Source: Paramacrobiotus metropolitanus
Taxonomy: Eukaryota; Tardigrada; Eutardigrada; Parachela; Macrobiotidae
Direction: 5' to 3'
Assembly: GCF_019649055.1 (NCBI RefSeq)
Contig: NW_026570284.1
Location: 434,001 to 498,000 of the forward strand
DNA: 64,000 nt
Below the pieces are notes generated by a model. That model was not told the origin of the DNA. It ran no database searches and saw only the letters and a program-made list of their open reading frames with translations. Shown here piece after piece: positions 33,587 to 61,937 of the stretch. Numbering within the stretch: position 1 is the stretch's first letter; each line of letters starts with the position of its first letter. A program made the translations under genes and the position numbers.

Positions 33587-36500
33587 TCACGACTGCGACT
33601 GCGAAAAGGGAATCGAAAGCTGCGATCCACCGGAAAAAGGCCGCAATGGACGTTCCTTGCGCTGGATGCAGTCCCACACCTTCTCCACCACTTCGTCACG
33701 ATATTCTCCCAACAAGTTATCCAGACTCTACAAAACATCTTGTTTCAGTTTTTTGGCATGCATCCAGATCCCAGCATTATGAGAAAATGGACACAAGAAG
33801 AACGATGTCGACGGGCTGACAATTTGCAAACATACGCAGGACCCGATGTCTGAGTCAATTATGAAAACAACGTTAATTTATTAGTTATCATAATGATATC
33901 ATATAATAACGATATTTTATTATTAAATATTAATTAATTATTCAATGTGCCTTAGCAAAAATAACCCAACAGCAAATCACTCAAGTCCGCAACTACATAG
34001 CAAACCTTTCGACTCAAGGCAAATATATCGTCCAGCGATTCAATATTATGTCCATCCTGGAAGAAAGACTTCGCAGACAAGTTCTTCATGTTCAAAACAG
34101 TAGAGATCCAACTGAAAACAGTAAAGGCATGCATTAGATACTGTTGCGCAACGAAATCATAGACGTAACACTCCATCAATATTCACACACTGCCCGCTGG
34201 TACCTACCTATTAATTTCCATAAGATTCTCTCGTGATGGGCCCTTTTTAGCGAAGGCAACGGCAGTTGTGCGAAATCCCGAACCAGGATTCGTGATAGTT
34301 TCACTGCAAGTACTTTTGCTTAGCAAACAATCAGCTAATCTGCAGATTTAAAAAAAGGAACGGTGCACGAATATTCTTACACGGGAACACAAGCACCCGG
34401 CATAAGTGGGCAACGACTCAGACCGTCCAACGTATGGAACAGGATGTCCATATGGGAACTAATCAGACTAAGGTACGCAACGGGAGAATCGACCTCCATG
34501 GAAATCTTCACCCGGTCACCCTCCCTTTCCACATGGCGCTTCTTTTCAATTGTTTGTAAAGCTTTTGTTGGAGTCAGTGTGTTGCCATTGATACCATTAC
34601 TCAATCCCTCTAAAAAAGTAAAAAAGCAACTCAGTGTTAAAACTGCAGAATAATCGAAACAACGGCGCGCGTAGTGAAAATCAACAAGACATCTGCAAAT
34701 CGGCAACTGAAACACAATATAAACAAATACCCGTTGAGCTTTTTTCGGTATAAGTATGTACTCCTTTCTCACACAATTTTCATTCTGTTTCCCATAAATA
34801 TATCTTTTCTACAAAATGATTAATGAAATAACAATAAAATAACAATTACTGCAACCGCTACTCGTAGGCGGAACTCCGTGGTGAAATTTCGTCTAGCGAC
34901 TACAGTAACAAATCACAATAATTATCGTGATTACTGCGTTTACTGAAGAAAATAGCTGACATGAGTGTTCTGGACATTATACCGTCTCGCGTAAATTGGC
35001 ACTGAAATAATTTTTTTTACGCCGGTATCTTTGAGAGTTGCTTGCCTGCACAGCTACTGAATAATTCAATAAAGCTATATCTTTTACATCACAGGTATTC
35101 TACAACTTAATCTCAAATTTTACCTTCTTTTTTTATGAAAACATCCTCTGAGTCAGCGTCGCTCGCTTTTCGCTTGCGCCCTCTTCGGCCTTTAACGGCT
35201 TCCACCACGGTACCATTGCTCCGATCTTCGATATCACTGTCACGCTTGGGACCTATAAACCACAGATCACACTGGGAATCCTGATTTCTATAACCCTTTT
35301 CCACGTACAAGCACAACTGCGAATATTTAAAGTCTTGCGGCCTTCAACTTTCCCCCTACAAAATAAATGAACAATCAATTATCCGAAATAAAACAAAAAT
35401 CAGCGGTAGAGTATTGTAACGTACTGCACATGCAGCTCGAAAACGATGCAAATGTTGCATTTGGCCTTGTGGCAGCTGTTATTGCAGGTGCAAAGATACC
35501 GTCCCATCACCGAATGACCTAAACAATAAAAGCTCGCTTTATTACTAACGAAATCTCACAACCTTCAAACCAACATCAAGTATTAAAGTACTTTTTCCTG
35601 TTTTCTTCCCGGGATAAGTCAGAATAACCCGATTGTTCTCGTGTTTGGCACCCTTTTCCTCGGTGTATAAGAACTGCTTGTCTGAGAGAAAAAGAGAACA
35701 ATATTAAATAACGAGAGAACTCCCATATTAATAACGACAGAATTCCCATTTTAGTTGTCAGCTGATTTTGTAAAAAATTACAGTCGCAGGTGAACAATAA
35801 CGTCGGAACTTACACAACTGGCAAACTTCCACATGTTTGACACACGGTAGGACGTTCTGGCCAAAAGCGCCTTTATCATTGAAGATTGGCAAAGCGTGGA
35901 TGGAAAATTCGGAGCTGGGGCACGTTTGCATAGTAAACTGCACTACCCACTGCTTAACTCGCTCGAGGAAGAGTTTTTTGGTTTCCGGCTTGTATATCCA
36001 CTCTTTTCCCTGAGCTTTCTGTGGAAAACAGATATCGAATCCATACTGTCCTGAGAAATCCCTGCAAAGTTTGGGAGCATCATATCGATATCTTATTTCC
36101 ACGGCAAAAAGCAAAAGAAGGCACCACAATGATAGCATAAAATATAAACAAAAGCTCTTAAACACGTATTAAACTACCACGGATAATCCGAATTATTTTG
36201 TAATTTTAATCGAAAAATGTGCAAAATTTTACTACAGAACAATCGCAATATCTAGCAGTGTTAAACCCAGCACAGAAAGCAAGGCACAAAATCAGAAAGG
36301 CACAAAATCGTCACAGTAGGATAAATGTAAAATACAAGCAACAATGTGTAAATGCAAATCCAACTGCAATGGAAACTTCCACGCACCTTTCCCAATTACA
36401 TAGCAATTTTAATCGAAAAAATATTCAAATACCGGTTCACTGCTGAGCGGACGCGATAAAAGCCGGTTAACTGCTGAGCAGCCGCGATATCTACACGTAT

Positions 36501-37470
36501 CAAATCCAAGAAAGATAACCTTACGAATTTTTCCCTTACCGAGGTCCTCCGTCGCTCGCCAGCTCCTGCGAATCCGCGCTCTGTACGGTCGCCCCCGCGG
36601 ACGTGCTGGGAGCATCCTGCGACAGCGGGAAACCGTCCCTATCCCACCGGACATAGTACTCCTGTTTGCCAGCGCTAACAGCAGGCATCTCTTGGCTGCT
36701 GGGCAGAATCAGATCGTTCATCCCCAAGTCCGTCATATTGTTGGCCAGCCAGGAATATGAATATCCGCTCTCCACGACCGGCGCTTTCCCGCCACGATCC
36801 ACCAGCTGTACCACCTGCATCCCGTTCATCGTACCATAATCATTATTAGCCGTGGACTGGCTTAGAGGAAACAGGTTCTGGCTGGACGGTGGAGTTATCA
36901 AAAACTGGCCCAGGATCTGCGAAACTCACAGACTCATCTTTCATCCATAAAAATGACTTCTGAATAATATTCCAGATTATTCTGTATCGTTAAACAGGTC
37001 CGTAAATACGGGGCTTGAAGGTTATTCGTAATAAACAAATTTTTTTCTAATTTTTGAAAATATTTGCCTACTGCTGTTTTTGGAGAAATCTGATTTTGGA
37101 CCAAAACCCACGATATCAAAGACTCATCCATTATAATGGTTTAGTTTTTTGATTATTAGTTAGAATAAGTTCATACATACAGCCCATTTAAGTGCTATTC
37201 ATGATGACAATTTATTCTTATTTTTGAAGGTACCTGGCTAGTGCTTACAGGATCATTGCTCTGAGAACTGCGGAACAGTTGATCCATCTCGTATGGATCG
37301 TTGAAGGCGTTCAGGTTCTGTAAGCTCTTTTCGATGCTCTTTTCATTCCCGAACAGCTTCAACAGGAACGAGTTCCCCTCCTGATCTAGTGGTCTGATTT
37401 CCTTAATCTCTGCGGCTTTACCGGCCAGCTGCTGCTCAAGGCCTGGGTTTCCGTTGGGAATGGGATTCAT
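33587..37470 (-). CDS. p53: p53/p63/p73-family transcription factor with SAM domain, 11 exons, 597 aa
   Basis: Sequence-specific transcription factor of stress response and germline quality control. Exons in transcript order: 37470-37234, 36916-36540, 36061-35814, 35681-35592, 35518-35425, 35355-35309, 35252-35124, 34609-34381, 34303-34208, 34111-34006, 33727-33587 (1794 nt, phase kept). The DNA-binding domain starts near residue 206 (DFSGQYGFDICF, WIYKPETKKLFL). Zinc ligands are Cys278/His281 (PCVKH) and Cys329/Cys333 (CTCNNSC). The helix-2 region is NIRSCACPKRD, with Arg361, Cys365 and Arg368 matching human Arg273, Cys277 and Arg280. The L3 loop is shorter and has no Arg at the Arg248 position. 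A basic stretch follows (KGRRGRKRK). Residues about 516-580 (WISTVLNMKNLSAKSFF, SLDNLLGEYRDEVVEKVWD) form a SAM domain as in p63/p73. I see no clear tetramerisation motif. The true first exon may lie upstream. Confidence 0.93.
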
Positions 37471-39299
37471 GATACCGTAGTAAGACTGCACGAGGCAGGC
37501 TGGTTCTAACAGTTGTCAAGCGAGAGCACGCAGCACGAAGATTCACGTAGAGACGGGAAACAGCATAACCAGTCCGCACTATGAAACTGTTAAACTTAAG
37601 AAACCCAAGAAAGCTCCTATGAAAACAAAGAATGCGGAAAAGGAGAGGAAAATAGGACCAGGACGGTAAAGAGAAAAAAAAACTCAGGAAAATCGTCATG
37701 CAGCAGCCAGAGATGTACAGTACTTATGCACGCACTACGCTGGTACAATGAGTGCAGTTTAATGCACTCGTACAATACCTACCACAGCTGCCAACCACAG
37801 CAGCTGGTCCATAGGTGACAGGACCGCCCGATCATGATTCATTCATGGCCGCTAAAGCGCTGGTAGCCTGGTACGTATGTAGAAGCTGCTTTGTCACTTT
37901 TGTGTATACGTTGCCACCGCCCTCGGGAATCTGTTAAACCGAATGTTAAACCGGACATGACAACACCGCTAGCGCTAAGTCGCTAACACTGCAGTCCACT
38001 CTTCACCACAGAGTCGTAGACCGATCACGACCGCTTTTGATTTTTATTTTTCATTTTACTTTTTTATTGGTTTGAGTCGTTTGACGTTAAACTAGTATAG
38101 GTCTCAGCAGCCCTAAGGGCAAGCAAGCGAGCGACATATAGACATTTTTTGCAAAAACAAAGATAGCATCAAGGATGGCTCCCATATTGCAGCTGTATGT
38201 AGGCGTAGGAGTGCAAGCCCTTAGTATTTTTGGGTTTAATTCGGCAAATAAACAAAGAAATGGCGCACGAAGCAACGTGCAAAATGATTAGTATGTTAAC
38301 TTTAAACCCAATAACACTGTATGATGATTCCTACCGACATTTTAGTGTATGTTTTTAGTGTTAATGCAAGTAATGACTTGTCTCAAAATTATTTTCTTAA
38401 AGAGTAATGTTTCCCGTGGTACATAATAATATTATTACAACATTTAATACGACTGTAAGCCTCAGTTACTTTGTGCAAAATTATAATATTGCACCGATAT
38501 GTCGGAGATATACCGACAGCCTTAAATTCTTTGTTTTATTCGAAAACTAACTGCTATCGATAAACATGATTATTTAATGTTTCTCGACAAAAACAAATCA
38601 GCAGAACATATTACGGATGATTAAGAATCAAGATGCCACCCCCAATGTGGGGAAGTGCTGAAAGTGGGGCAAAGATTTGTAAAATTATTGTACATAATGT
38701 AGAATGTGGAATAACGCAAATATCATCATTATCATTTCATCAAACAACCTTAATTACTACCAAGACGTCAAGGTTGCGATGCCGGCTAACGTAAGATATA
38801 CCTCAACGATATATGCATCTGGGAAGCACTGTATCTGTACTGTCGAGTCAACTTGGCATTTTTTTCATTCGGCGAGTTGCATCCGATTTAAATAGGATAT
38901 AACTCACTGTACAAAACGGTGCTGCCAAGTGAGTCGACAAGAAAATGCCTGAAAATCTTTCTCAAATTCCTCGAAAGAAGGGTTTGCATCCTTCTGGTGT
39001 TCGATATTCTCTAGAGATGGGAATACTATATCAGTGATAACGACTTCTGAATCAGAAGTTTCGATTGCCCCTTCCATTAAACATTATTCTTAACACTGAC
39101 CTTTTGCACATGGTAAGCTTTTAAGTTCATAACAATTTAACAACAGTATAAAACAATGATGATTTAAAGTCGGAATATGCAAATAGTATTACGTTCACAT
39201 AATATTGGACATAATAATTATTAATTCAGAACGGGTGCCTAAAATAAACACTCTGCGAAATGGGGTGCCTATAATAAACAAGGATTTTAGGGGTTGCCT
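37471..39299. other. Intergenic region upstream of the p53-family gene
   Basis: No gene recognised. An acceptor-like CTCGTGCAG just upstream of the assigned p53 start (minus strand, near 37487) suggests that a further 5' exon, coding or not, may lie in this stretch; I could not identify it. A polypurine tract (plus strand) occupies about 37630-37685. Confidence 0.45.
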
Positions 39300-39905
39300 A
39301 TAACGGTTTCCTTAAAAATATTCGGAAATATTAAGAAATAAATTGAGAAATATTCAGAAATATTTAGAAATATCTAGAAATATAATCAGAAATACTTACA
39401 AATATTTAGAAATATATTCAGAAATATGTAGAAGAAATTAGCAATGTTTAAAAACATGTGGAAATTGTTGGAAGTATTTTTCAAAAAGTTTAAAATTATT
39501 TCTAGAAACATTTAGAAATATAAATAGAAATATTTGGCATCTTTAGAAATATATTTAGAAACAATTAAAAACATTCAAAAGAATTTAGCGTTTTCCAGAA
39601 ATATTTAGAAATAGGTAAAAAGTTATTTTAAAATATTTAGAAGCATTTAAAAATATTTAAGAATATTTAGGAGAATTTAGCGATATTCAAAAGTATGTAG
39701 AAAAGTTTTTAGAAATATTCATAGAATATCTTTAGAAATATTTTTAGTAACACTTAGAAATACATATGAAAATATCAGAAATCTTTGAGAATATTTTTAG
39801 AAATTTTTAGAGCAATTTAAATGAATTTAGCAATATTTAGAGTTATTTTTACTAACATTTGTTAATTATATTTGGAAATATTCTTAGAAATGTTTAAAAA
39901 TACTA
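39300..39905. repeat. Degenerate AT-rich minisatellite (TTTAGAAATA-like)
   Basis: Dozens of diverged copies of a roughly 10-12 bp word based on TTTAGAAATA or TTCAGAAATA run head to tail (for example 39349-39425). The copies are too diverged to be a recent array. There is no open frame across it. Confidence 0.8.
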
Positions 39906-40389
39906 ATTTAATTCAAACGCTCGTTCAGAACTTTATCCTTGGACTTCGAAATCTTTATTAAAAAGTTTATTCAAAACTTCAAAATGATGTTGCACAATAT
40001 CTACACATAGCATTGTTCACCCTTTTTGGAGAAGGTACAGTTAACACTTCTTTTTTCAGTCCAGAGGGGTTTGCGCTGCCCCTTTGATGATTTGTCAATA
40101 GTACTTAAACTGGGCCCGTACAAGTTGTTCAGTTAAACGTCACAACGTATGATGCGGTGCATTGTCCATATATAAACCAAAGCATAGCGTAGAATTTGTT
40201 GTAAAATTGTGTTTTGGCCACGACAATTGACCACAGCAAATGAGACATTCTTTTTCGTTTAGTCTAACATTCATCTGTCTTTCAAAAGATCAAAATTTTT
40301 TGAATTAACATCCGGTGACGGGACCCTCGTTAGAAACAATGAATTTGTTTTTAAGATTAACAAATTATTTAAATTTATTTAACTTTTTA

Positions 40390-40620
40390 GATATGTAGTA
40401 TTTTTAAAAATATTTGAAAATATTTTTTAATATTTAGAAACATTTCAGAAATATTTAGAAATATATAAGGAACTACTGGAAATCTTTTGCAGAAAAGGTT
40501 GAAATATTTAGATAAATTTAGCAGTTTTAAAAATATTCAACCATTTTAGAAACATCTTAGTAATATTTAGAAATTTATTTTAAAGAAATTCTAAAAAATA
40601 CTTTGAGTAATATCTTAAGA
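40390..40620. repeat. Second block of the TTTAGAAATA-like minisatellite
   Basis: The same word family as at 39300-39905 resumes after about 485 bp of ordinary AT-rich sequence (39906-40389, nothing recognised). The similarity of the words suggests one original array split or eroded in the middle. Confidence 0.7.
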
Positions 40621-40724
40621 TAATTGCATGCATAAGCTACATACAACTTCTGCAAAAGCAGCATAATAAAATCCTAGATTATCCTTTTCGTACATCAAAA
40701 GTCATTTACAAACCAACCCGGATA

Positions 40725-41090
40725 CTTCGGTTGGACTCGCCACATTAAACTGTACCAGAAAAGTGCAAATCCCGGTGGCGACCTCGGGGAACCCGAGACC
40801 TCGAACCCGGGGACTGGGTTAGACTTGCCACATTAAACTGTGCCAGAAAAGTGCAAAATCCCGGTGGCGACCTCGGGGAACCCGAGACCTCGACCCCGGG
40901 TACTTCGGTTAGACTCGCCACATTAAACTGTACCAGAAAAGTGCAAAATCCCGGTGGCGACCTCGGGGACCCAGCGACCTCGAACCCGGGTTCTTGGTTC
41001 TTCGATGCCATTCGACTCAGCGTGTCGAGTTGTGCAGGTTAGCAGCAAAAAGTCAGCGGCGAACCCAGGAACCCGGGTTCGAGGTCTCCG
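40725..41090. repeat. GC-rich tandem repeat, about three 88-90 bp units, with an inverted end copy
   Basis: The word CATTAAACTG recurs at 40743, 40831 and 40921, giving periods of 88 and 90 bp. Units share CCAGAAAAGTGCAAA, TCCCGGTGGCGACCTCGGGG and a CCCGAGACCTCGAACCCGGG-like end. The 16-mer AGACCTCGAACCCGGG (40796-40811) reappears as its exact reverse complement at 41072-41087. The block is much more GC-rich than its surroundings. The open frames across it do not stay in one frame over all three units, so I do not call it coding. It could be part of a mobile element or satellite family. Confidence 0.85.
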
Positions 41091-41268
41091 TGTCACAGAA
41101 AACTCAAATCTCATCTATAATAACGCAAGCTCGCTTCGCTCGCTTGCTTGATAAGTAGTTGTGAAAACAGGGAAATTATTCTCATTCTTCCAGATATCGT
41201 TTTGTGCTAAACTTCGGCCTCGTATTCTTGTGTTCACTCCCAACTCCGATAATTCACACAGTATTACG

Positions 41269-43254
41269 ATGTCCGAAAAATCTAGCCTAGAGGTCCAGAA
41301 GGACTGGCGCTCGAGTAAACACATTTCCAAGCGAGCTCGTTATCTCCTGGATCATCCTGATGAAGAAATTCCCAGCGATGTCACCTTTCTTGTGGGAAAT
41401 GGAGAAGGCCAACCAGGAAAGATCTTCTAGTGCCATAAGTAAAGTGTCATGACAGCAAAAACCAATGTCTTCAATTTGCTGGGCTGATTTCTTCCAATCC
41501 GTGTAGCACCTAGTTACAGAAATATTATACTAAAATTACTACTGTTTAGGTTCGTGCTTTCGCTGGTGAGCGCTGTGTTCCCAGCCATGTTTTATGGTCC
41601 ATTAAGCCAGTCCACGGAACTGGAAGAAACAATTGAACTTCCTGATATTTCACCGACCGCGTTTCGCCTGATGCTCCAGTGAGTTTTGAAATTTTGTTTT
41701 TTGGAAAAATTAGTGCCGACCGCCCAGCGAGCTAATATTTGTATCTTCGGTAACAATGATAAGTACGCCGCAATGTTTTACTGCACTTTTACCAGTATTC
41801 GTTATGTCCAACCAGATTTGCCTACGCTGACGATACGGATTTCGAGATCGAAAATGGGTGTCCGTCGACGGCAGATCTCCTGAACTTGCTGTATTGCTCG
41901 AAGAAATATCTTATCTCCAAGCTGACAAGGGAATGTCGAGATCGCATCCAGTCATTCATAGATCCCGAAAATGCGTGCTTGATTTTTCAGCAGGTTAGCC
42001 ACTAGTATGATATAGATATACAGAGTACGTAGCCACTATGTATAACTGTACTCGTATAGTTTAATGGAGACTGCTCCATTAAATCAAATCTGCTCCATTG
42101 AATGGTCAAATCTGAATCTTGTTATGCTTATAGGATTTATAAACAATCTTATTACCGTTCTATAAATTTTATTTCTATTAATTAGGCTCGCTGTTTGGAG
42201 GAGGAGATCCTTGCCAAAATAGCACTCGCAGAAATCTCGCGTTACGCAGCGGATGCGATGGACAGTGCAGGCTTTTATTCTCTTTCCCTTCCTTGTGTGA
42301 AAGAAATTTTGGATCAGCCGGACTTGTTCGTAATCGAAAGTTATATATATGAGTTTGTTCGCGCGTAAGTTATTCGGATTTGAGCTTTAAGCTTACTGTA
42401 ATTTTTATTTGGGAACCTTATAATTCTAAAAAAACATTCTAATCGTGCCATCTTGACCTTCATTGCGGTATTCTTATAATGATCTTTTCTTTTTGGGTGT
42501 CAGGTGGGTGAATCACAACGTGGCCGCCGCCGCTGATAATCTACGCGAAGCCTTTGGACCGCTGTTGTATTCCATTCGCTTTCCAGTATTTTCCGCTGAT
42601 GAACTGTTTAAAGGACCTGTGAAAGTAACGATCATACCCGCATACATTGAGCATATCATTCCATATATGCCAAGAATTTTTGCTTTGCAGGATGGTGTTC
42701 TTACCGATCGCGAAGTGCGGGACATTTTTCAGCATATACATGCAACAGAAAAGCCGATTTTGCCCTTCCTTACCATGTTTCGAACATCTCCGCGGAATCG
42801 GTGCATTTGGGAATTTACTTTTACGAACACCGTGTTGAAAAGAACTCCATGGTCATGCTTTAGCGTTCGGATTACAATGTACCCAAACTTCGCTCCGGAA
42901 TGTTGTCGTTTTCTCCGGCAGATTATCGAAGGACAATGCCGCATTCTGTTTGAGGGCTACACAAATCGGTTTCTGCGTTGCGAAGTGCCCGGGACAGCAA
43001 TTATGGAAGAGGCTACGGTGCTATCACATTCCGAGATGGGGGCTTGCTGGTTGGAATGGGATGTAGATGAAGTGGGCGCTATTTCCGGTCTTCGTATAGC
43101 TGCCTGGAGAAAACCGGCTGCCAATCACAGTGCGGTATTTGGCAAGTTGGAGGATACCGATAGTGACTTTCAAGAAATGTTCCGCAACTTTTCCTTTCTG
43201 CCAAGAACGAGTACTTCTATTACACACATTCGAATCTTTGAAGAAGCTAAGTAG
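41269..43254 (+). CDS. BTB-BACK domain protein, 5 exons, interrupted by an in-frame TAG
   Basis: BTBD3/BTBD6-type protein; relatives act as Cullin-3 substrate adaptors. Exons: 41269-41438, 41550-41678, 41816-41993, 42186-42364, 42504-43254 (1407 nt, phases match). The N-terminus KDWRSSKHISKRARYLLD leads into BTB (SDVTFLVGNGEGQPGKIF, CHKFVLSLVSAVFPAMFYG, ELPDISPTAFRLMLQFAY). BACK follows (NACLIFQQARCLEEEILAK, LPCVKEILDQPDLFVIES, EFVRAWVNH). The last 200 residues have no recognised domain; a PHR domain is not evident. Codon 54 (41428-41430) is TAG, between GKIF and CHKFVL, exactly where the family has a continuous strand-helix. No alternative splice site avoids it. Everything downstream is intact, so this is a sequence error, a very young pseudogene or stop read-through. 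Confidence 0.85.
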
Positions 43255-44461
43255 GGGATATGTGAAAAATTTTGATATTGCCGGATACTTTATCTGGGCA
43301 TGATTGTGTTTTCTGTTTTAATAGAGATCCGGTACGTTATTTAAGTTTTTAAAAATTGGTTTTTGTAGTACCTTTGTAATTTCGTGCTTTCACGCATCAA
43401 CGTTGTGATATTCCGTGAAGTTGGACAACAATCTGATAAGTTTATTTGTGGCGCGATGCCCGATGCAGTGTGCATAAATCCGCTAATTCCACAGAATCCT
43501 GTACATCTGTAATAAACTTCGTGTAGCACTGTACTCGTAGTATGCGGAATAATATACAAAAAGCAAAATTAATAACACCTTGGACAGCTACAATGTTCAT
43601 CTGTTGACCGCTGAAGAGTATGCCGGCCTAGTTCTGTCAGTCCCGAAAGGAATCATCACATAAGTATTCGCATTTCAAACCAATTATTTCCATGGGTGAT
43701 ATATTCTACATTGTAACTGAAAAGACTGCCGTGTCGACTGTTTATATGCTTCCATAGAGGGATGGAACTGCTATCTACCTCGCGTGCAGGTTGCAGCAAT
43801 ACTTTTCTCTACGTGTTTAATTGTTTTTCTTGTGGTACATCCTCTGTACATGACTGCTTACTACTGTGCGCAGATTAAAAAAGTACCCGATCCACAATTT
43901 CAGCGGTTCCGTTAATTATTACTGATCTTTCACACTCGTGTTCATATATTCCGAAAGCTCCGATTTTTGACACTGAAGTCAATTGAGACAGTTTAGACAA
44001 CTTAAATAATTATATGCATGCAGCGAAAAAGTGTGCATTACGACCAATTTATCGTTAAATAAATATAAGCGAAGCTTTCCAGCTATGAATTTGCTGTAAT
44101 TATACATTTTGTACATACAAAATGTAAACGAGCGAGACTGATAAATTTTCAATAACTAATAATAAGGTATACGACTAACATGAAAAATCCTATCGCCTCC
44201 GTTCAGTAACTTCAATTGTAGCAAAACAAAACTTACAACGATGTTGCATTTTATGTACCTACTCAATTTAAATACATTATTAAACTGCACGTGTACGTAT
44301 GTAAAGCAATAATTAGAACGTTATTTCACAGGTTTGGGTAAAACAAGCGTAAAGCATCATCATGCACTGGCCGATCTTGTGAAGCTGGGGAATTTTTCGA
44401 CGCTAAAAAGGCAGCAGATTCATATAATTTTGCAGTCACTGTCAGCACCGGCATTCCACTC
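43255..44461. other. Intergenic, BTB gene to orcokinin gene
   Basis: Convergent 3' flanks. No exon recognised on either strand. AT-rich. Confidence 0.5.
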
Positions 44462-45646
44462 TCATCGCCGGGAGAATGACCCGAAGCCAGGTCGGTCCAA
44501 CGTGTCAAAGTTCCGTTTGCCCATAGACCGCTTGCTCAGCTCTCCGAAGCCGGGTCGGTCCAATTGGTCGAAGTTACGCTTGGAGAATCCGCCGAATCCG
44601 CTCGCCGAATCGATGGGATCAAATCCACGTTTGGATACTTCCGTGGCCGGGATGCTGTACGGACGCTGCATGGCCGCCCACGGTGGATACTGGTAGAGGA
44701 TGTAGTCGTTGTCAAAGCTCCGCCCCAGACCGAAGCCTGTCAGGGAATCCATCCGTGAGCGCTGATTAAGCTGGGATTTACGCAGTGTATGACTAAGGTC
44801 ACGTCCCAGACCGCCGCCGATTAAGGAATCAAAGCCGCGCTCTTCGCGCAGATTTTCATCCTATTAAAGAAAAAACCGCTAAGATTTGTATTTAACATGA
44901 CGGTCACGTCCAAAGTCAATTGACTTGATTGTACAAAGTATGCACTTGTTGACCCTTCCAAGATGTACATCGTATAAGTAGTAGACGTGGAAATATTTTT
45001 TCCGATAACATTATACGGTAAATCCTGTTTTTGTACGTATGCGCTTGTGGTCTTGTATGCACATGCACTTGACAATCATCTTTAGCATAGAAGTTCAGTC
45101 ATAATCTATGGATTGACCAGAATCAGTACGTTTCGAATGATAATGCTGTACCATGAACAAAACACATCTACGCAAATGTATCGAATTTTGCCTAAATTTA
45201 GCTGATTCAAATTTCCGTTTACGTCATACTTATATTGATTAGGCAGATTTTTTATTCGAAGGCCAGTTAATCTTTCTACGAGCATGTCTTAACTAACTTC
45301 CGGCTAAGTACTTATGTACTTCTAGAACAACCACACCTTATTTTAGAATGTTACTATCGCAAACTGCATGAGCGGAGTACAAGCGAATAGTTTGTTCTAA
45401 CCGGAAAAATGTTAAAGCGTTTATATTGCAGTCGTTTTACTTAAGACACTAACTGCTTCAGAGTACTTTCTCCTAAGCAATACACATAAATATGCAAGCT
45501 ACATTTTTTTATCGGCTATTGTACCAATTTATTGTACCGGAAATGGGTAAAGGTCACCAATCACTTACAATAAGGGCGTGACATATGGCAACGGAGACAA
45601 GCGCGATCACAACATTGTAGCCGAATCCCGTTATCCACGACGGCAT
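44462..45646 (-). CDS. Orcokinin: Orcokinin neuropeptide precursor, 2 coding exons, 158 aa
   Basis: Secreted neuropeptide precursor. Exons: 45646-45569 (signal peptide) and 44860-44462, joined in phase 0. MPSWITGFGYNVVIALVSVAICHA is a signal peptide with a hydrophobic core and likely cleavage after CHA. The second exon encodes dibasic-flanked peptides: GFDPIDSASGFGGFS-KR, NFDQLDRPGFGELS-KR, SMG-KR and NFDTLDRPGFGSFS-RR. These carry the NFDxxDxxGFG core of orcokinins. Two related N-terminal segments (GFDSLIGGGLGRDL and MDSLTGFGLGRSFD) lack clean dibasic ends; they may be orcokinin-B-like or spacer. No C-terminal amidation signal is present, as expected for orcokinins. The stop follows the last RR directly. 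The 708-bp intron could hide another exon; I saw none. Peptide boundaries are predictions. Confidence 0.94.
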
Positions 45647-48138
45647 CTTGATTGCTGTTGACGAAAGGCGTTGTAGAATAAGTATCTAGTGGAGAGCTGT
45701 ATAAAGAAAAACAGGAGTAAACGTTCGAAAAGCTTTACGCAGAGGATTTCCGGCCTTGGAGTTGCTTGGATCATTACGCTACATGACCACTTCCGCCGTT
45801 CAGTGTTTTTGCTCTATGAACTACGTAATTTTGCTGAGAGATTTTAATGTCCATACTTCCCTACAAAGATCCTGTATGTTTATGGCGAATTTCGTAAGTA
45901 GAACACTTCATGTAAAGATAAAGTTTTTATACTACTTTATAGTAAAAGATAAAAATTAAAAAGCTTTGTCCAAATCGCTTATGGCACCACCCGTGATTAC
46001 TAATGATTGGGAGTATTCACTCGTTGGTGCCTCGATATATTCCCACTATTGGACGCTGAAAACGTTGTGGATTTTTTTCCAGCTGTGCAAACACATAGGT
46101 GTCGCGATACGAAACTAATTAGTCACGCGCATGTCGAAAGTAATCCATAACCTGCACAGTAACCAATTCTTCTACGAAGTTCTTTACCTCATAGGGATTC
46201 TAAGGTCATGTAAAAATTACGGTTTTATTTTTTATAGTATTAAATTATAAAGGTAAATATAGATTGATATTTTCATATGCGCCAATTTTTACCGATGGAA
46301 AGCTCACCGGAGAAAAATTTGTACCTCCTCTGCGTTACTGTTTTTCGCAGTGTAACCCGCCCGAATGCCAGATGGGATTATTAAAATCCTTTTAACTGCA
46401 CACCTCGATAAATGTTTATTGTTAATAAAGCATCATAAATGCATCATCTACGCATTTCCTGTTTTGAAAGTGTTCACGCTCGCAAATATGGTAAATTATG
46501 CAATTTATCGGCTTCTCAGTTGCTTTAAAAACGCGGATTTACACACGCCTGTTTAAAATCACTACTTTTGGCTATTGCAATTCCCAAAATTAATATATTA
46601 GTTATATTAAAAAAGGGAGCACAATGGAAGTATTGACAACAACAACTGATGTGCTACTGTGTGCATATTAATTATTGCTGTAAATAATTATATTCATTCT
46701 AATTAAAATTTTCATCGGAAAACGTTAGCATCTGTGGCGGTAATTACGAGAAATCATTGACCTTTATGCTTTAGGTGCAAACGATGCAGCCTTAGTATAA
46801 CCAGCTCCCAGGTTACAATTTTACGATGCCACTCAAATTCAACAAAGCAGTAGCTATTGCGAAAATGCTTCCGAAGATGTTTTTAAAAATCCTTCTGCAA
46901 AAAAAACATTCCAGCAGAACGAAAACGGAAGCATCTGAATAGTGATTCATAAGGTGCAACTACAACACCGCAATTTCAAATTTTTGGCACGAAATAAGAA
47001 AAGTCTTTCACGTACCTTTGAACCCGCAAAGCTGCTCACTCCCAAAAGGTGTTTATGGATGACCACTCAAACCGTTTAAGTCGCAAACCAAGTGGATAGG
47101 TCACCAGGTCTCACCGCTCCAGACAATCCCGATTAATATGGTCAAAAGAAGGCGCTTACACAGTCACAACTCCGCAGCCATATTCCTGCTGGGCTTTATA
47201 TACCGGCAGCAATTTGTGTTTTACAACATCAACACCACGTCACTGGCGGCGGATACATTTGGGCGGTTCCCTATGGCACGCACGGGATTTCACGCCGGAA
47301 GCGGACACGCGCTGTTATAGTACACAGTGTCCGCTAAGGCGGGAACTCCTTTAAGGCATATAATTATGTCCCAAGACAAATATGACTCATTGACTTTTTT
47401 CTAACCGCAATCTGTATTGTACATGTGGACCTGTTCCCGCGCTTCTAATCGAAGGATAATTAAAGCCTGTCAAGCTTAACAGGAGCGCAGGGTTATTTAA
47501 CGAGATAGCAACGCTTGGTTGGCTGCCGGCTTATACAGCCAATCGCCGGTTAGTCCCAATGACGTTTAAGTGCCAATACGTGTGTGCACAGAACATGATG
47601 TTCTCTCTCTCCATGGATTGCCCGGCTATACAATTTTATTGACCATAAAAGTTTAACTATAATTTCCTGGAAGAAACAACAGCTGAATTATTAAAATCCA
47701 TGGACCAGCCCTGGTAATACAAAGTTCAACATGGCCATCCCGCTCTCCTTGTGTCAATCATTGTTGACAATTAAATTCGGGAAACCACCGTGTGGTTAGT
47801 GTGCGTACGCTGGAACATGGCTTTTATGAGCGTGTGGTTAGTTACTTTTTGACATGTTGACGTAATTTGTTGTTACAACTTACAGCTGGCATTAACATCG
47901 ATCGGATTAACACACAGAAAGCGAACAAAATCATTTACTAACAATAACTGGAACAATTTTAGTTCTCTGGTTCTGTATAAAAATCATGTAAAGCACTGAC
48001 TATTCTGTATCACGCGCACAATCACTGAATCACACAATCGAAAGGAAGAAATAAGGTGGATATTACACGAAGACCCAAATGTAACCATTCATAAAAATGT
48101 GCAACAGAATTTGACTGTTCAGTTTTATAGAAATCAAG
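45647..48138. other. Intergenic, upstream of the orcokinin gene
   Basis: About 2.5 kb with no recognised coding exon. On the minus strand a TATATAAAG word (47194-47202) could be a core promoter element for the orcokinin gene, but it is 1.5 kb from the start codon and I found no convincing first exon beside it. Confidence 0.4.
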
Positions 48139-50727
48139 TTAAAAAGCAATCTTTCCTCTTCTTTTGAAAAATCCCAACTGCAACAAGAAAACATTAAAAA
48201 TTCTTTACTTGTTGATTATAATTTTCGAAATCTGTTTCAAAATATACCTGGGCTTTATTGTAGATATGAGAAAGAATTCCCGCATAATTCTCGATCATAA
48301 TGCCGGTTTCTTCATAACTCAGAGCACCGGAATGTGCGTCCACTTCCTGCCGACAGGCCGTAATAAAGGGTTGCAGGAAGCCCTGCAGGAGATAACCGGT
48401 AATGCCGCTGCCAGCGATGATCGTCTCGCTGAGATCTGCCGCAGCGGAGTGGTCAATAAAGGTCACGTATGGAACTTCCGAGAAGGGATTCCAGTTAACC
48501 GATTGTGGCACCTAATGCCAACCAGAGACACTTTATTAAAAAAGTCATGCATTAACCTTTTAAAAATTACGCATTAACCTATTTGAAAAGCACGCACTAT
48601 GCATTATTGACAAGCCGCTTTGGGTTTTGTATACCTTTACTGTTGACATAAAACATTTCTTTTTTGACATTCTGTCGGGAACTGCTTTGCGGTAATTTTA
48701 CAAAGATTATTCACTCAAAACACAGAGGTACTTACAGTCTAAACATATATTTCAGTAAGCAAGTACCGCAACATTTTAAAATTCGTTTCGACATAATTTC
48801 TTGCATGTACTTATTGTTGGGTAAAGAAATTTTTGACCTAGCTCGCTTCAGTTAAACACTGCCTCACTTCTGCTTCATTTTGCCAGCTAATCCGCAGGCC
48901 GGTTTGATTACGGTCCCTGCAAAATCCAAGGTCACTTAACGTTAACGACAGGCCGAATTAACTTGATATGAAATCCCGGCAAATGTTCTTGTGCACGCAC
49001 TCAAAGATGGAGCCAGGCGGATAGCGCAGTGATCCATACACGCATCGGTTAATCAACTGCAATATCACCAGACATATCGTCACCTTTTCCCACTTGTCAC
49101 TAAAAACAACAACGCCAAAGAACTAAATAACCTCGGCCACTTACCCGCAATGGAATCCGTCGATATTCTATTAGGGTTAACTGGATGAGGTCATACTTGA
49201 CGATGATCACTGTATGAATTTACACAATACCGGAAGCCGCGTTATAGCATACGTTCTACATCTGTATATCAGTCTGGTGATTAAAGATTTCGGGCCGAAC
49301 TGCTTACTGTTGCGCTCCGTCAGGAATACTAATCGCTCATGCTCCACATCCCAATGGGATATTCTGTCGGAAGTAAAAATGAGCCGGTTAAAGGGAGAAA
49401 CGGTGTTAGAAATGTCAGCCCTTAAGTGGAATGCCAGGGTACGGTATACGAGCCCATAGCGATTACTCTGTCAGTAGCCATATTCCGATAAGTTTCCCCT
49501 CGCGATTGCTCGTGTCCGTAATCACCGGAAGGCTACAAAATGCATATGCTGTAAGAAATGGATGTAATACGCTGCAAGATCAAGTCTCCCGCGGTAGCAA
49601 AGGGGAAGGCCGCATGTCGTAATCTAACACCCATAAAGTAAGGTGCATGTTAGAGGGCACCGTTGGTAGAACGTACCATTCTTTTATGGCATTAGCGATG
49701 GTGTGTCCGCCATCCTGGGAAAACATGAAAAGTATGGTTTCAGAAAATTGTTGCTCAAAGAGTTCTATGATTATTATGCCTTGCAATAATTCTGTTGTTT
49801 ACTGCCAAAGTTTTATTAGGCGATAAGAAAATTAATTATTGCTGACTTCGACATCCGCAGTCAAGCTTTCGTTCTCTGCTGATGATGCATTAATTCTGTC
49901 ATATTTTAAACTACTGTGCTAGGCTAACAAAATATTATTGAATAGTTTTTCAGTACACAGTATAACCTACATTACAAAACGTAAATTACGATTATTACAC
50001 GTACTTAATAAATCATATACGGCCACACCAACAAAATAATTTTAGAAGTAAAAATATTTTTCGTAAATTTTTTTGGTAGCATCGTTACGCCATTGACCGG
50101 CCCAAGTGCTGGACCTTTTAGGCTTTTTTATCTACTTCTAGTTTTGGGTTTAGTCTGCATACTGTACATATGTACGAGTACATTGCAAATGGAAAGCCCG
50201 CATGGGAGACGGATGTCGCTGCGCATATTTTTGCTTTACTCTACCACGCTGCGCACTTCTACAGCAGCACAACGCTGCCGTCTAGTTAACATCTTCACAC
50301 TGACCCGGAAAGCAAAGTAGGTTTTTAACGAACGCTCCGCTTCCTTCTGGGCAACTTGACGGCTGGCCTCCTCCACCGCCGCGCCACCGAGGCTGCCTCC
50401 CGTCGGTATTGGCCCGGAAGCGCCGCTAATACTCCCTCGGGTGGCGCCATTCGCTGCGGCCGCCGTGCTGGCCGCGGATCCTGACGACGACAACTGGCTG
50501 ATGCTTTCTGACAAACGGCGCAGTGTGGAGAATAAGGTGGAGCTGATACTGGATTCCTCCGGTACGGTGTTGGTCTCACTGGTAGGGGAAGGGTGCTGCA
50601 GGGGGGATGTGGGAGCGGAGACCGTGCTGCTGGGTGATACGGTCGTTTCGTCTGTGAAACGGATACGGGCGGTTTTGAAATCAATGGCTGTTAGCCCGTC
50701 GTCCGTCACATCCTCGTTCTTCTCCAT
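48139..50727 (-). CDS. TPRG1L: TPRG1L / Mover-like hSac2-domain protein, 9 exons, 351 aa
   Basis: Homologue of tumor protein p63-regulated 1-like; vertebrate TPRG1L (Mover) is a synaptic-vesicle-attached presynaptic protein. Exons in transcript order: 50727-50305, 49714-49677, 49532-49467, 49363-49308, 49209-49145, 49056-49001, 48916-48868, 48511-48248, 48177-48139 (1056 nt, all phases match). The first exon encodes an acidic, Ser/Thr/Ala-rich N-terminus of about 130 residues, longer than in human, ending KTYFAFR. Family motifs follow in order: IGIWLLTEISHWDVEHERLV, NMIIVKYDLIQLTLI, YGSLRYPPGSIFEDRNQTG, LRISWQNEAE, NWNPFSEVPYVTFIDH, GIMIENYAGILSHIYNKAQ and the diagnostic end LGFFKRRGKIAF. Small exons with GTGCGT and GTGAGG donors make it easy to mis-predict. 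No catalytic phosphatase motif is visible. It lies upstream of the p53-family gene on the same strand. Confidence 0.93.
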
Positions 50728-53936: not shown

Positions 53937-56900
53937 CTAAGCTTTCTTAAGCAGTTTGTCGGCTCGTTTGTTGGCTTCGGTGATGCGCGTCTGGTTGGAT
54001 TCGGTTTTCAAGTTTATTCGGTCCAGCTGCCGGTTTTGGGTCTCAATTTCACCGCTCATATCCACGGCCATATTACGCAGATTGCTGATCATCGTTGACA
54101 CCTGGCCGAGATTCTCTTCCATTTCATCCTCCCTGGCATCGTTTGTAATACTGAAATATTAAAACATGATCAGTAATTATGTGCTCAAAAGTAGATATAT
54201 ATAGATATATACAGTAAGTAGTACATCATCAAGTCCTACTCGGAGTTAGAAAGTCAGATATACACCTATCTGATCCTAACGTAAAGTGCAAAGAACAGGT
54301 CTTAGAACCTTATAAGCGTGTACTTTGAAAACATTTTTGAAATAAATAACGTTTTTGGAATAGTGATGATCTGTTTTAAAGTGTACGGCTTCAACACATT
54401 TACAATACGTGCGTACGGTAAATTGTTTAAAAAGTCCCAAAAACATTCTACTGAAATGCGCCATTTCAAAACTTTCTGATAAATAGTACCAACATTCAGC
54501 ACTATGTACATTAGGAAAAAAAATTAACATTGCAGCGCAGTGTACTCGTACAGTCATGACTAAGGGTATGATTTCTTGTCGGAAATCGTTAAAATACAAA
54601 CAGAGTAACGGATAACTAATCTGTACATCGTTAAAGTGATCAATATGATCTCGTACTAACAAATACCGTGTCAACATGTGACCGCTCATCAAGGGACCAC
54701 CTCCGTCTGGCACAGTCACCCTGGGTCCACCGGCACTTTTTCCATCATCATTTCCTTTCCATGTTTTATCGTAGTCGGCTCCTTTTTCAAAATTCTTCCC
54801 CCTGATTTTAATAGAATCACAATAAATTACTCGACGTCCGATGATCAAATGCTAAAAATATGCGACTACTGAATTTCCTTTTTGTTTGATAAACAGCGTA
54901 GTTGGACAACTGCATACCAGTATCAACAAAGTTATAAGAAAAGCCTTACTGCACCAGTTCATAATACGCATGTGGTAAATCCGTCGTGCACGTAGTGCAC
55001 GATCGCAGGCTTACTTATTCCATGGGCAAACACATAATCCACAACATTTGTCCAAGCCGGTTAGATTTTTTTCAGCTTCTTTCATGTCCTGGTTAATTTG
55101 GTCCATGCCCTCTTCTATTCTGTCCAGTTGTTCTGCAATAGCATAAAAATGGATTATGATAGATAAAACGCGTTAACGTCAACTAACTGAAATACTGTTA
55201 TCACTAAACTTAGTATGTGTGGTGATAGTAAGTAATTTACAGTTTTTTTCTCGCGCCGGATGCAAATATGGTGTATCAGGGTACAAAATATGCAAGCGAG
55301 CCATGCAGTAGAAGTGTTCTGTACACTACTGCAGCTGCAAAGATTGATTTAAAAAAATATAAAAACACTAACACCATCCGAAACATTTCCTATGTAAAAT
55401 TTATAATTTCCAAGAATCTATTTCCAGCTTGTCATATGAAGACGACGCGCACTTGTTTTACATGACGCGTTTTTATGACTGTACGTCTGTACCTACCTCC
55501 TTGTTCGTCCAACATAACCAGAGTTCGGATGCCGGCATCTTTACTCTACAACAAGATTAATTATTGCACTTGTCACCTCTTGTGAGAAAAACGCAAATTT
55601 CTCATTACTTCCGATCATTTATCAAACAAGACAAAGCAGCTCAGATCAAGCATGCGTTTATACTCAACATTTTCACCATCAGGTTTTTTCTGCAGTATGC
55701 TTATCTGCTCACAATTTATCGCAAATAATTTTAGATTCGCCTTTAACCGTAACACGACAGTTGTCCAACCAAGCGTAAATGAGAGCGTCAAAATTTAAAA
55801 GAACTGGGATTTCAAAACGCTATTTATTCATCGCAAGCAAGCAAGCGCACAGTGCCAATACGCGTACACGCAATTTAGAAACTTCTGAGCTTTGATTTAT
55901 GCCATGATTTAAGCGCTAACCTATGTCGATGAACTTTTGAACCAAAACATATAAGAGCATTTTTTAAAAGAAAGCCTAATTTATTAGTAAATAAAATAAG
56001 TTTATGCCAGAATTGCAAATTATATAGATTTTAAAGAACAGAGGCTGATTTTGTGAATTCATCATGTACCGATCTCTGCATTTTCGCGTTTATCGGCAAG
56101 TTCATGAATCGAAAACGGAATCTAGACTCTAGAGAAGTGGATGAGTACGCATGGCATAAATGTTTACTGCGCATATACAGAGTATAGTATCCAGAGAAAA
56201 AAATATGGTAAGCAGTGCCCATGTCTGTTTAGCTTAATCCTTTGGTTTACTCATTGACTAGCTCCCCGTTCGGAGTTTGGACGATATATGTTTTGCAGGC
56301 ATGGTTATGGTCAGGGATTTAGTAGCCTCCTGGGAGATAAATGAAATTGACAGGAAGGGTAACTGGTGAGACACCAGTAACGTCATGTCGCCGGGCCCAG
56401 TATGCTCATCAAAATCGCTCAAGGCAATTGGTTCAAGTTAAGCGAACGGAAATATGAAATTTTATCTGATTTCAGCGCAAGCGAAGAGAATCTACCATAT
56501 ACGGTAGGATAATATTCCGGCTTAACATGGGTCTTCTAAAATAAATCGAAAACATGGTGGTCCTACGTACACAAAATTTACAGTCAGTCGTGTAATCTTC
56601 TGTTAATCGACCACGGAAAAAGAGCTTGAAAATGCGGTAAGAGTCGGTAAATTCCATTTTTTTTGTACATAAATTTCGCCTACCTCATATTTGTGCCTCG
56701 CATAAGCTTTTGTGGGAGAAGAATTATTTCTTAGCTGCTGTGTAAGAAGTGGAAGATTTATTTGCGTATAAAATTCGCACCACATCATCGCATTATTACG
56801 CACAAATTTAATTACAGCCGAAAAAGCTTTAGGTGCGGCAAATGTTGATTGGGTAACTGAGTGGGCAGGCTTTCTATTTTGTTTACTTGGATCCATTTTT

Positions 56901-59900
56901 CTTGATCTCATTTTATCTCGGTTATATTGGATTTACCAGACTGAAAAAATATACCCGTATGGACTTTATTTATTAAAGATATACTTGAAAAATCGACAAT
57001 GTAGTTGTAAAACTGAAACAGCAGATGCCATAAAAAGAGAACCGTCGTTCTCAAGATTTAATGCATGTTACATAATAATGATTATGATCGTATTCTGATC
57101 ATGGTTTTTCCGTAAACTGATTGCGATAATAAATTACGTCATGGGTGAAAATACATCGTATTAATAACCAGTATTTAAGCCCGTTACGATGCATGGGAAT
57201 TATTAATCGACTAGCCAGATGGAGTTACCGGTGTGCGAGTTTACTGAGTGGAAGTGCAGTGGGTATTTTTTCCCTGTGATAAAGTACAGTATTTCCCTCA
57301 GCTCCACACGCACACGCATAGCCTGGAGAATTGCTAACATGCACTAGCACTCGCAGCAGCGATAAATTTTCAATTTGACTCAAATGCCTAATTACCTCTT
57401 CCAGCATCTGCACCATCCGGCGCGTGGAATCCAAGGTCTACAAATGAAAGGAAACATCAATTCAACAGCAAACCACATATAACACACCATACACAAGCAA
57501 CAATCAATAGTCCAGTTCCGCTGATCAAGCGTAATGTGCTGCCGAACACCTTCTCTCTTTGTACCGGCTGCTCATTATACATCAATTTCCTTAATTAAAA
57601 ACTTGGCATTTTCACGAATACGCCGGTGCATTAAGCGCCGAAATATCCTGGTAAACATTAACAGTAATACATGAATTTCTTGTGACCTTTATATTTATGT
57701 AAAGTTTCCAAGTGCGAAAGTTTACCGATTTCATGCAAGGAGGCAGTCACTTGCAAATATCGCTAAAAGCGAAACTATTCATTCGAAAACTTGCACAGCA
57801 TCCGACTAAATACGGCTTTCATGTCAACAAAAAATAATTAAGTATTTCCCTTAAAACCATTACGCGGTCCGATAATTCCAGACTTACGTTACATCTTTTA
57901 TTATAGGTATTAATATGTTCAAATATACGAGAGTGATAATAAAGCTGAAACTACCGAAGGATATAGGTTACCTCGTACATGGAATCATCAATCTGCACTT
58001 CTAAACTACTTTTTCGCGGTGGCTCAGGCTCAGTTTCGTTATCACCCCTTAAGTTCAAATCAAGAGTTTTAAGATCAATGGGTTCGGCAGCGTCTTTCCC
58101 GGTCTTCCGCGGCGCTCGGCCAGCCGCACTTCCGGTATTGCTTTTGGTTGTGGCCATTTTTATCTTCTATATACCAATAATTATCTCCCCGCACACACAC
58201 AGTACGCTTTATCACAGCTTTGTCATGAAAGGCAACCGCTCTCTCTATACGGAAAACGCGGGATTCAGAATAAGCGGATTAATCGACAGCGATTATTCCC
58301 GCGTAGAAAAAAACCACCACCCTAATGACACATGCGCGAGCAACATTGCCGGATCGGATTGGATGTGTGACCACTGAAACGACACCGCATACATATATAT
58401 GCCGTGTCACGAAGTGTAAATCCAGTGGAAATATATTTCGCCGCACACGTAGTTTGGAGAATCATGTAAATCGAAAGTGACGCGAAGAGGGAAAAAGGTC
58501 CTCCCGGATAAATTTAATAATACATATCGTCAAATCGTCAACGTTATAAACGGATGCCGGAGAATACAATTCGGACCGATATATGACCAAGTGTTCAGGC
58601 GGACGACAAGGGCCCAGAAGGGATTAGCCGGCCACCCAGGAGGAACATCGCCGCGAAATAACAGGTTAACGACATGCCCACCAAACACAAATGCACACTC
58701 CACTATACAATCCCATGCAGACATTCGGGCGCGGTCTTTTCCTATGTATATCTGCTTATTGTGGGTTGACTTTTTAATTTAATCCAACAAAGCTCGGTAA
58801 GTAACAGGCAGCGCACATGGTCCGAGTGGCAGTGGTGGGTTTTTTCTCCACAGCCAGCTGAAAGCGGCAGCAGTGCAGCATTCGCACAATTTTCAAGTGG
58901 TTGACATGCAATGGAGAGAAATTTACTCAAGATGGAGACACAAAATGGCTCTTTATTGAACCAACATACTTTGTGCGGCAATTACGCATTTATGTAGAGT
59001 TGGGAATTCTATACACCGGGATGCTGGCCAACTTTTGGTGGGGATAGGGAAAATGGTGCAGATTGCGTTATGGGTGACCAGAGCGAAATACATAGATATT
59101 GTATATATGACTGAATATACAAGAGGTCATATAATACCCGGAGTAAACTGATGACGGGATAAAAATACAGGCTCAATACATAAACGTACGACCAACCGCC
59201 GCGTGTACAGCATATTGTCATATATATGATCCTGGAGAAGGAAAAATGCATAGCCGGCCTCTCTTCCCGTTGACACGGGCAACACGCATTCGGGAACGCA
59301 CCTATACAGTCGGGGCGCTGGGATGTATATATCACAGAGGAGCAGAGTGTATGCGAAATAAAGTCAGTACTTAACATCGATCGTTGGACCGGGGGAAACG
59401 AGGAGAATTGTAAAAAGCCACAGATGAACTATCATTTACGATCCGCGCTATATCACTCGACACTAGTTGCTTTTCTATTCCTCCCCTCGTCTGCCGTATG
59501 CAGATATACAAAGTATATACGCGGCTGCACAAACCAAAAATCGAAACTTTTCTCCCCATTTTATGTCCTGCTAGAAAACATATTACGGCCGTGTCCGGAT
59601 CGAGCAAGTGCGTATATATACTGTCTGATTATGTGTTGTGGTTGTATTGCATGACAGGAATGGTTTGTCGTATACCCTGCCATCTTCCAATGCGATGCAG
59701 CTGGCTGAACACAATAGCGTCCAAAAAATTGTTGCCGCGGTCAACGTCTCGATCGCGTTTCAAGGAAAGAAAATCCCGATCGTTGTAGGATCGTTTGATA
59801 TATGTATAACTGTAAATCAATGTCTTCAATGGAACTGAACAAGCAAGATGGGCTGTTTATATAGTCGTAAAATGTCTTATAGACATGTCGGTAAAAGGCG

Positions 59901-61937
59901 TAAACTGTGGTAAAGGTCGACAAGAAAGCTAACTGCAAGCGAACTGCTTGAGATTCCCATGGCCAGTGTCCCACCAGATTGTGCAGCTTCGATTGTATTT
60001 ACGCTTCAAACCAACTGAAATGAACTGTTGGATTAGACGAATTCGGAAAAAATAAACCAACGTAAGCACAATTCTTCATCAGATTTTCGTTTTCATTTAT
60101 CATACACGATAACTTTCTAGAAAAATCAAAACGTCACCAATTAACAATCGAATTGCTATTTCATTCTGCAATTATATTTTAGACTCTAGTGCAAAGTATG
60201 CTAATGAAATTTTTTTTTCGCTCGAAAGGATACGAGTGAAATGGAGTTGGCACTAGGACTGCACAAGAAACTTTAAAAGCATGTTGTGCTTATTGTTTAT
60301 AGTTGAATTTCTGTGGTGGTGCCAACTTTTGATTTTTTGTTCGCTTTATCGTTTCAGGAACCGCAAAATCATTTGCAACTCGATCACGATAAGGGAGACA
60401 AAATCACACACACAGCTCAAAATTGTTTGTTCTTCAGTTCCTCAGTACGAACCTACAGTTTCTAATAAACGAAATAGTTGCGTTGATTACAGATAACGGC
60501 ATTTTCTAAACTCGACCGTAGTTTAGAGCACAATCTGAATTCTTAAATACGATTCGTATAAACTGTAAAACCATTGTAAATAAAAAACTTGCAAAAGTCG
60601 GCGAAAAATATAACAAGCGAATGCAGTCTCAAAGTTCCACCTTGTGAAGCGGAAGAGCAGCCCTGACATAATATACGATAGAGATATCGGCAGATTGCAC
60701 TATGCAGGACTTAATTCCTATCCACACGAAAAGTCAGTCGATTTTACAGCTGAAACCCTTCGCTTACGGCTTCGATCCACCACACCAGCATGTTCAGGAT
60801 GTACAGATCATAAGGCACATGGAGTCATCGCATCAGCAATTCCATCAACATTAACGCAGTCTCCCCGGGAAGTCTGCCGGACCCAAATTTCATATGTGTA
60901 GTATACTTGTACGCCCATATGGTTTTTATCTGTACATGCACTCGGTGCAGTCGGGGCGAACTTCCGGCGACTGCGCTGGATGAGTTACACAGGACTGGCG
61001 ATGATGTTCCATGAACGCGCATATACGCTTAATATGTATATTGACCGGTTCCAGTCATCACAATCCAACATGGCGCTTATGGACTGCGGGAGGAAGCGAT
61101 TTTATTTGTGACGTAACACCTATTTGGTGGAGACGACTAGATGGTACATGTACACTGAACTGATTCGGAGCAGCCGCTGGATCAAGTACCACATACCACA
61201 AAAAACGAATGTCACAAAGCCGCGACTCCAGGTTTAGGGTAGAAAACGTCGATCTTCCAGTACAGCAGTTATTTATTTAGTGGTGTAATGAAAAAACGAT
61301 GTAATTAAACCCTAAACCATTAATATCAATGCAGTTCCCTTGCAAGTTGCAAGTAACTATTTTTTTCTGGAGCGCATTCGATGTACAGTGCAGACACAAG
61401 TATACACCAACCTCCTCATGTTATAATTATACCATGTACCCTCTACGCGGTGTTTAATATTGCTTCTTTAAAATCTTCAGTCAAATGAAACATGACAATC
61501 AAACCAAAAACAACAGACGCCGACAGCTTGTAAACGCTAACGCTGTGACTTTCTCACACAATATCTAGGACAGCAAATTATGCATTTCTGTAACCTTACA
61601 CTACTATGTCTGACAATATTAATGCATTTTAAAACTTTAGTATGATAAGCAAATAATGTGGAAAGGAAGATGAATACAGGAAATACTTCGTATAGTAAAT
61701 GCATGTGGTACAGTTAATAGTTTTAGAAGGACGTGTTCGGCAGCAACCTATATGCCTGCATGTTTGAACTGAAATCCTAAATTAGTCTAATAATTGTGCT
61801 ATCTTTACCTCGTCTGATTGTTGACCGATCTGCAGCTGGATTTCCTCCAGTTCGGTGCGGGGAACCGGTGGTGCCGCGGGATCCGCCACGTCGCCGTTGG
61901 CAGCGGCTGGGGCGCCGGTGCCTTTTGCCGGTGCCAT
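53937..61937 (-). CDS. Snap25: SNAP-25, synaptosomal-associated protein (t-SNARE), 6 exons, 228 aa
   Basis: Q-SNARE that pairs with syntaxin and synaptobrevin in synaptic vesicle fusion. Exons in transcript order: 61937-61809, 57437-57396, 55545-55497, 55132-55015, 54801-54667, 54150-53937 (687 nt, phases match). The Ala/Pro-rich N-terminus of about 25 residues is followed by the Qb helix ([15 protein letters not shown] / [14 protein letters not shown] / [17 protein letters not shown] / [16 protein letters not shown]). Next come the palmitoylated linker [12 protein letters not shown] with four cysteines, a linker with the arthropod-like [10 protein letters not shown], and the Qc helix from [18 protein letters not shown] to [12 protein letters not shown]. 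Zero-layer glutamines are present in both helices (DEQGEQ, ETQNRQ). An alternative first exon is listed separately. The first intron is 4.4 kb. Confidence 0.97.
57972..58157 (-). CDS. Snap25: Alternative first coding exon of SNAP-25
   Basis: A 62-codon exon starts with Met at 58157 ([18 protein letters not shown]) and ends [13 protein letters not shown] before a GTAACC donor in phase 0. That is the same phase as the other first exon, and it would splice to the common [10 protein letters not shown] exon at 57437. The result would be a 247-aa isoform with a basic N-terminus and a different start to the Qb helix. An alternative promoter is implied, 3.7 kb downstream of exon 1. It is inferred from phase, position and helix-like sequence ([11 protein letters not shown] in place of [13 protein letters not shown]); transcripts were not available. 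Confidence 0.72.

Follow-up and report, generated by a model that had tools for sequence, protein, structure and literature searches.

A p53-family gene closely linked to a predicted TPRG1L (Mover)-family gene in a tardigrade, in the order and orientation of human TPRG1L and TP73

Two linked genes on one strand

The sequence analysed here is a 64-kb window (positions 434001-498000 of its contig) of the 169.8-Mb, 533-contig assembly of the tardigrade Paramacrobiotus metropolitanus, in which a gene of the p53 family and a predicted gene of the TPRG1L (Mover) family lie close together. Gene models, built exon by exon with the sequence as their sole basis, place the p53-family coding span at 33587-37470 and the TPRG1L-family coding span at 48139-50727, both on the minus strand and with the TPRG1L-family gene upstream. 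The interval between the two spans, to which no strand is assigned, runs from 37471 to 48138 and measures 10,668 bp. The linkage, order, strand and distance of about 10.7 kb put forward in the original prediction were borne out by these models, whose ends fall exactly where they had been predicted. The pair is not strictly adjacent, as a BTB-family gene copy and an orcokinin-like gene are found between its members. No N occurs anywhere in the window, and the possibility that the pair was produced by the joining of a gap was rejected on this ground, as far as the assembly sequence goes.

The p53-family gene comprises 11 exons on the minus strand (37470-37234, 36916-36540, 36061-35814, 35681-35592, 35518-35425, 35355-35309, 35252-35124, 34609-34381, 34303-34208, 34111-34006 and 33727-33587), which are joined through GT-AG junctions into a 1,794-nt open frame that starts with the ATG at 37470, closes with a stop ending at 33587 and encodes 597 amino acids. 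Residues 206-375 of the protein match the Pfam P53 model (PF00870) with E=2.4e-22 and 80.2 bits (cut-off 27). When the protein was compared with the PDB, 102 sequences were retrieved at E up to 1 and, among the best 60 of these 102, the top match was Tumor protein 63 (8.7e-11), followed mostly by p73 and then by p53. In three p63 alignments, counterparts are seen for the C-x2-H and C-x3-C pairs and for the two arginines of the last motif (IRSCACPKRD); we take these to be the zinc-binding cysteine and histidine residues and the DNA-contact arginines of the P53 domain. Compared with p63, the tardigrade protein has two residues fewer in the loop where the former bears MNRR; an equivalent of R248 is not evident, and contact with DNA may differ. 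The shortened region lies in the exon 35518-35425 (minus strand), after residue 327.

No SAM or tetramerisation domain was matched by Pfam in the whole p53-family protein. Similarly, the 120-residue C-terminal fragment and the 81-residue middle fragment gave no Pfam match at E up to 10, and the five PDB matches of the C-terminal fragment were all at chance level. It should be noted that sequence methods can miss diverged SAM or oligomerisation domains. Since neither domain was found, membership of the p53 family is supported by the P53 domain, whereas the narrower p63/p73-like label of the original prediction is too specific for a protein in which the DNA-binding domain alone was detected. A passage of PMC5543598 urges caution in naming invertebrate p53-family genes by the presence of a SAM domain. 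One p53 homologue each, without a p63/p73-like gene, is described for three other eutardigrade species in part of PMC6652013; the single homologue is common to that account and to our window, whereas the species differ and no genomic neighbourhood is given in that part. A section of PMC13389832 further describes expression of a p53 homologue in parachelan eutardigrades and states that heterotardigrades seem to be without one.

Regarding the upstream gene, the model contains 9 exons on the minus strand (50727-50305, 49714-49677, 49532-49467, 49363-49308, 49209-49145, 49056-49001, 48916-48868, 48511-48248 and 48177-48139) that make up 1,056 nt, from the ATG at 50727 to a stop ending at 48139, and encode 351 amino acids. 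Residues 145-247 match the Pfam hSac2 model (PF12456) with E=2.5e-16 and 59.7 bits (cut-off 26); the match spans model positions 8-115 of 115 and is followed by a tail of 104 residues. The SAC phosphatase domain that distinguishes Sac2/INPP5F was not found, hSac2 being the only Pfam match in the 351-residue model at E up to 1. From this hSac2 match without a SAC domain we concluded that the gene belongs, as had been predicted, to the TPRG1/TPRG1L family. In rat Mover, as described in part of PMC6856015, the domain occupies residues 53-163 of 266 and 103 residues come after it. Mover (TPRGL, SVAP30) and the window protein thus resemble each other in an hSac2 domain followed by 103-104 residues, and they differ in the N-terminal part, which is about 90 residues longer in the window protein. 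By distance from hSac2, F206 of the calmodulin-binding stretch F206-K219 of Mover corresponds to window residue 290; residues 271-312 of the window protein, placed by this distance, contain no lysine and one arginine.

Copy number, intervening genes and flanks

Searches of the tardigrade's own genome were carried out for both genes. The Pfam P53 model gave a single match in the 169.8-Mb genome. All matches obtained with the p53-family protein (11 of 11) and with the TPRG1L-family protein (7 of 7) were exons of the window locus, and extra copies of either gene were not found by these exon-by-exon searches. The Pfam hSac2 model gave one genomic match, on contig C6, and missed the TPRG1L-family gene of the window itself, whose domain is spread across short exons; the searches are therefore not exhaustive for split domains. 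The contig C6 locus (1956000-1965500) encodes both SAC and hSac2 domains (Syja_N, 4.3e-42; hSac2, 5.5e-9). Because its hSac2 stretch also encodes a SAC domain, the C6 gene is, judging from its predicted domains, a separate gene of the Sac2/INPP5F type. An identity of the window gene as Sac2/INPP5F was rejected, this distinct SAC and hSac2 gene being present on C6.

The first of the two intervening genes, at 41269-43254 on the plus strand, is a BTB-family copy that was delimited from open reading frames and related stretches of the genome, the family being named by eye. Its first modelled exon carries an in-frame TAG at 41428, and its last exon alone gave no Pfam match. A genome search with this last exon returned 50 matches, several of them on the window contig; the count takes in the query exon as well as matches to a second exon in the same genes. 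Related stretches lie at 514451-515017 of the same contig (66% identical) and on contig C87 (58%). These matches suggest a lineage-specific expansion of the BTB-family genes, and the copy in the interval may be a late arrival between the pair.

The second intervening gene, at 44462-45646 on the minus strand, encodes a predicted orcokinin-like neuropeptide precursor with a signal-peptide exon (45646-45569) and a peptide exon (44860-44462). The peptide exon contains units such as NFDQLDRPGFG and NFDTLDRPGFG beside basic cleavage sites, units that we take to be of the orcokinin family, and gave no Pfam match. Two tandem repeats were also detected in the interval, at 39312-39841 (period of about 10) and at 40715-40999 (3.2 copies of a 90-bp unit, with 89% matches). 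At 53937-62009 (minus strand), immediately upstream of the Mover-family gene, exons were noted that resemble by eye those of a SNAP-25-type SNARE gene; the stretch 53937-54158 had no SNARE match in Pfam. If the SNARE reading holds, two presynaptic-type genes, SNAP-25-like and Mover-family, would lie side by side. A tRNA scan found none, and an NCBIfam scan of four proteins gave a single match, at E=0.17.

Comparison with vertebrate loci and origin of the linkage

In human, WRAP73 presumably lies between TPRG1L and TP73, and TPRG1 and TP63 presumably have the same order and strand as the tardigrade pair, at a distance of hundreds of kb. For human 1p36.32, a table in PMC3893467 gives TPRG1L at 3,531,416-3,536,555 and TP73 at 3,558,989-3,639,716, neither being marked as minus strand. 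It follows from these coordinates and the lack of a minus-strand mark that TPRG1L and TP73 of human share a strand with TPRG1L upstream, as in the tardigrade, and in both species the two genes are tens of kb apart (22.4 kb in human). The original prediction had named this arrangement, and also TPRG1 as the neighbour of TP63 at 3q28. The former agrees with the table in order and strand; the latter agrees, as to neighbourhood only, with a passage of PMC4960294 in which TPRG1 and TP63 are the nearest genes of one 3q28 locus, as the tardigrade genes are neighbours at theirs. In zebrafish, medaka and fugu, the neighbours shown in part of PMC7014666 are, in sequence, prdm16, tprg1l, wrap73, tp73 and rer1, so that WRAP73 is the gene between the pair in these three fishes, whereas the BTB-family and orcokinin-like genes occupy this place in the tardigrade.

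Such a likeness could have arisen by coincidence, the two genes having come together independently in the tardigrade lineage. If two genes were placed at random, a gap this small would be expected with a probability of about 1.3e-4, or of about 3.1e-5 when order and strand are included; on an assumed chromosome of one fifth of the genome, the values are 6.3e-4 and 1.6e-4, respectively. These figures argue against coincidence, although they are uncorrected for the choice of this pair after looking, when other pairs might have been noticed, and a window of this kind offers many gene pairs for comparison with human neighbourhoods. Further against coincidence, the searches found each gene only once, and there was therefore no choice among paralogues. 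The intervening genes, by contrast, differ from the vertebrate one, which is in favour of coincidence. The surroundings also speak for coincidence. A match to RER1 was found on contig C20, matches to the SKI/SNO domain on contigs C34 and C26 (two in all) and a match to Dishevelled on contig C12, SKI and Dishevelled being taken by us as marker families of the vertebrate regions. The three tested families thus all match away from the window contig, on which no wider conserved block was found. It should be noted that contigs are shorter than chromosomes and that different contigs do not mean different chromosomes. On balance we regard coincidence as unlikely, though a serious alternative.

Several points weigh against an ancestral origin of the linkage. 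In addition to the absence of a wider block and the choice of the pair after looking, the ancestral explanation rests on a single invertebrate genome, and the pair is interrupted by two other genes. Assignment to the TPRG1L family rests on domain matches rather than on a tree, and a PDB search with this protein retrieved no related solved structure and one chance-level match (E=0.7). Finally, a further, diverged TPRG1L copy could have been missed by the searches.

Taken together, we nevertheless consider it probable that the linkage is ancestral, vertebrates and the tardigrade having had a common ancestor in which the two genes were already neighbours and were ordered and oriented as they are now. 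It is from the family identities, the single copies found, the distance, the order, the strand and the matching arrangement of human TPRG1L-TP73 that we infer common descent. The original prediction raised an origin as early as the bilaterian ancestor, which one invertebrate genome does not establish. The TPRG1L-p53-family neighbours of this ancestor would have been copied by the vertebrate genome duplications to yield TPRG1L-TP73 and TPRG1-TP63. In the tardigrade lineage, the pair would have come down as the one copy of each gene found, with the BTB-family copy and the neuropeptide gene between them. For the pair to persist, slow loss of tight linkage, without any function, would suffice.

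Regulation, earlier descriptions and meaning

An ancestral linkage could also have been kept by shared regulation, either because the TPRG1L-family gene, or DNA beyond it, contains enhancers of the p53-family gene or because the p53-family protein controls the TPRG1L-family gene, much as p63 is said to govern Tprg in skin. This explanation is a special case of ancestral linkage, and the probabilities that we attach to the two overlap. The order and strand, which equal those of human TPRG1L-TP73, are in its favour, and the title of a 2008 paper by Antonini et al. calls Tprg a direct target of p63. To look for p53-type double sites, the 64-kb window was scanned on condition that each half site retained its C and G, together with 30 Markov-simulated control sequences. 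No site was found at 0 or 1 mismatch and three were found at 2 mismatches. The simulated sequences had on average 0, 0.6 and 5.5 sites with at most 0, 1 and 2 mismatches, respectively (range 0-11 for 2). The three weak sites, at 36.9, 41.6 and 45.3 kb, are all in or between the two genes, as shared regulation would have it. However, their number is below the simulated mean, two of the three fall in modelled exons of other parts of the locus, and the TPRG1L-family gene and the DNA just upstream of it contain none. Direct control of TPRG1L by the p53 family through consensus sites is therefore unsupported. Moreover, part of PMC12866144 describes human cells in which deletion of an intragenic enhancer of TP73 left the expression of TPRG1L and WRAP73 stable. 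Shared regulation as the cause of persistence is possible but unsupported, and we hold it to be doubtful, somewhat more so than coincidence. We find equally improbable the most far-reaching proposal. In it, the bilaterian ancestor would already have had the pair as a unit of microsynteny, and coupled regulation would have held the two genes together for over half a billion years; TPRG1L (Mover), far from being a vertebrate invention, would be an ancient partner or target of the p53 family.

The original prediction knew of no account of this linkage outside vertebrates, and none was found among the matches listed in open-licence full texts. Likewise, a search for TPRG1L in invertebrates gave no paper with the phrase among the matches listed in such texts, and a word search of PMC12828049, PMC5543598 and PMC8851819 gave no mention of tprg. 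A viral-contig scan for relatives yielded 144 pattern matches and no relative. Mover is called vertebrate-specific in passages of PMC3665746 and PMC6053503, and part of PMC9569738 describes it as absent from Drosophila and C. elegans; a passage of PMC6856015 speaks of a strong deviation from invertebrate ancestors and of no functionally characterised invertebrate homologue. In part of PMC8480191, a hydrozoan transcriptome study, a TPRG1L transcript is named, with inconsistent labels; the family is therefore not wholly unreported outside vertebrates. The gene predicted here provides evidence that the TPRG1L (Mover) family occurs in an ecdysozoan.

If the linkage is ancestral, the neighbourhood of TPRG and p63/p73 would predate the vertebrate duplications on the evidence of an outgroup, and the linkage would offer a sequence-independent marker with which p53-family genes could be traced across phyla in which the proteins have diverged. 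TPRG as a p63-linked target would also become testable in small genomes. The tardigrade gene itself has a bearing on whether Mover should be described as vertebrate-specific, and would open the presynaptic role of this family to study outside vertebrates.

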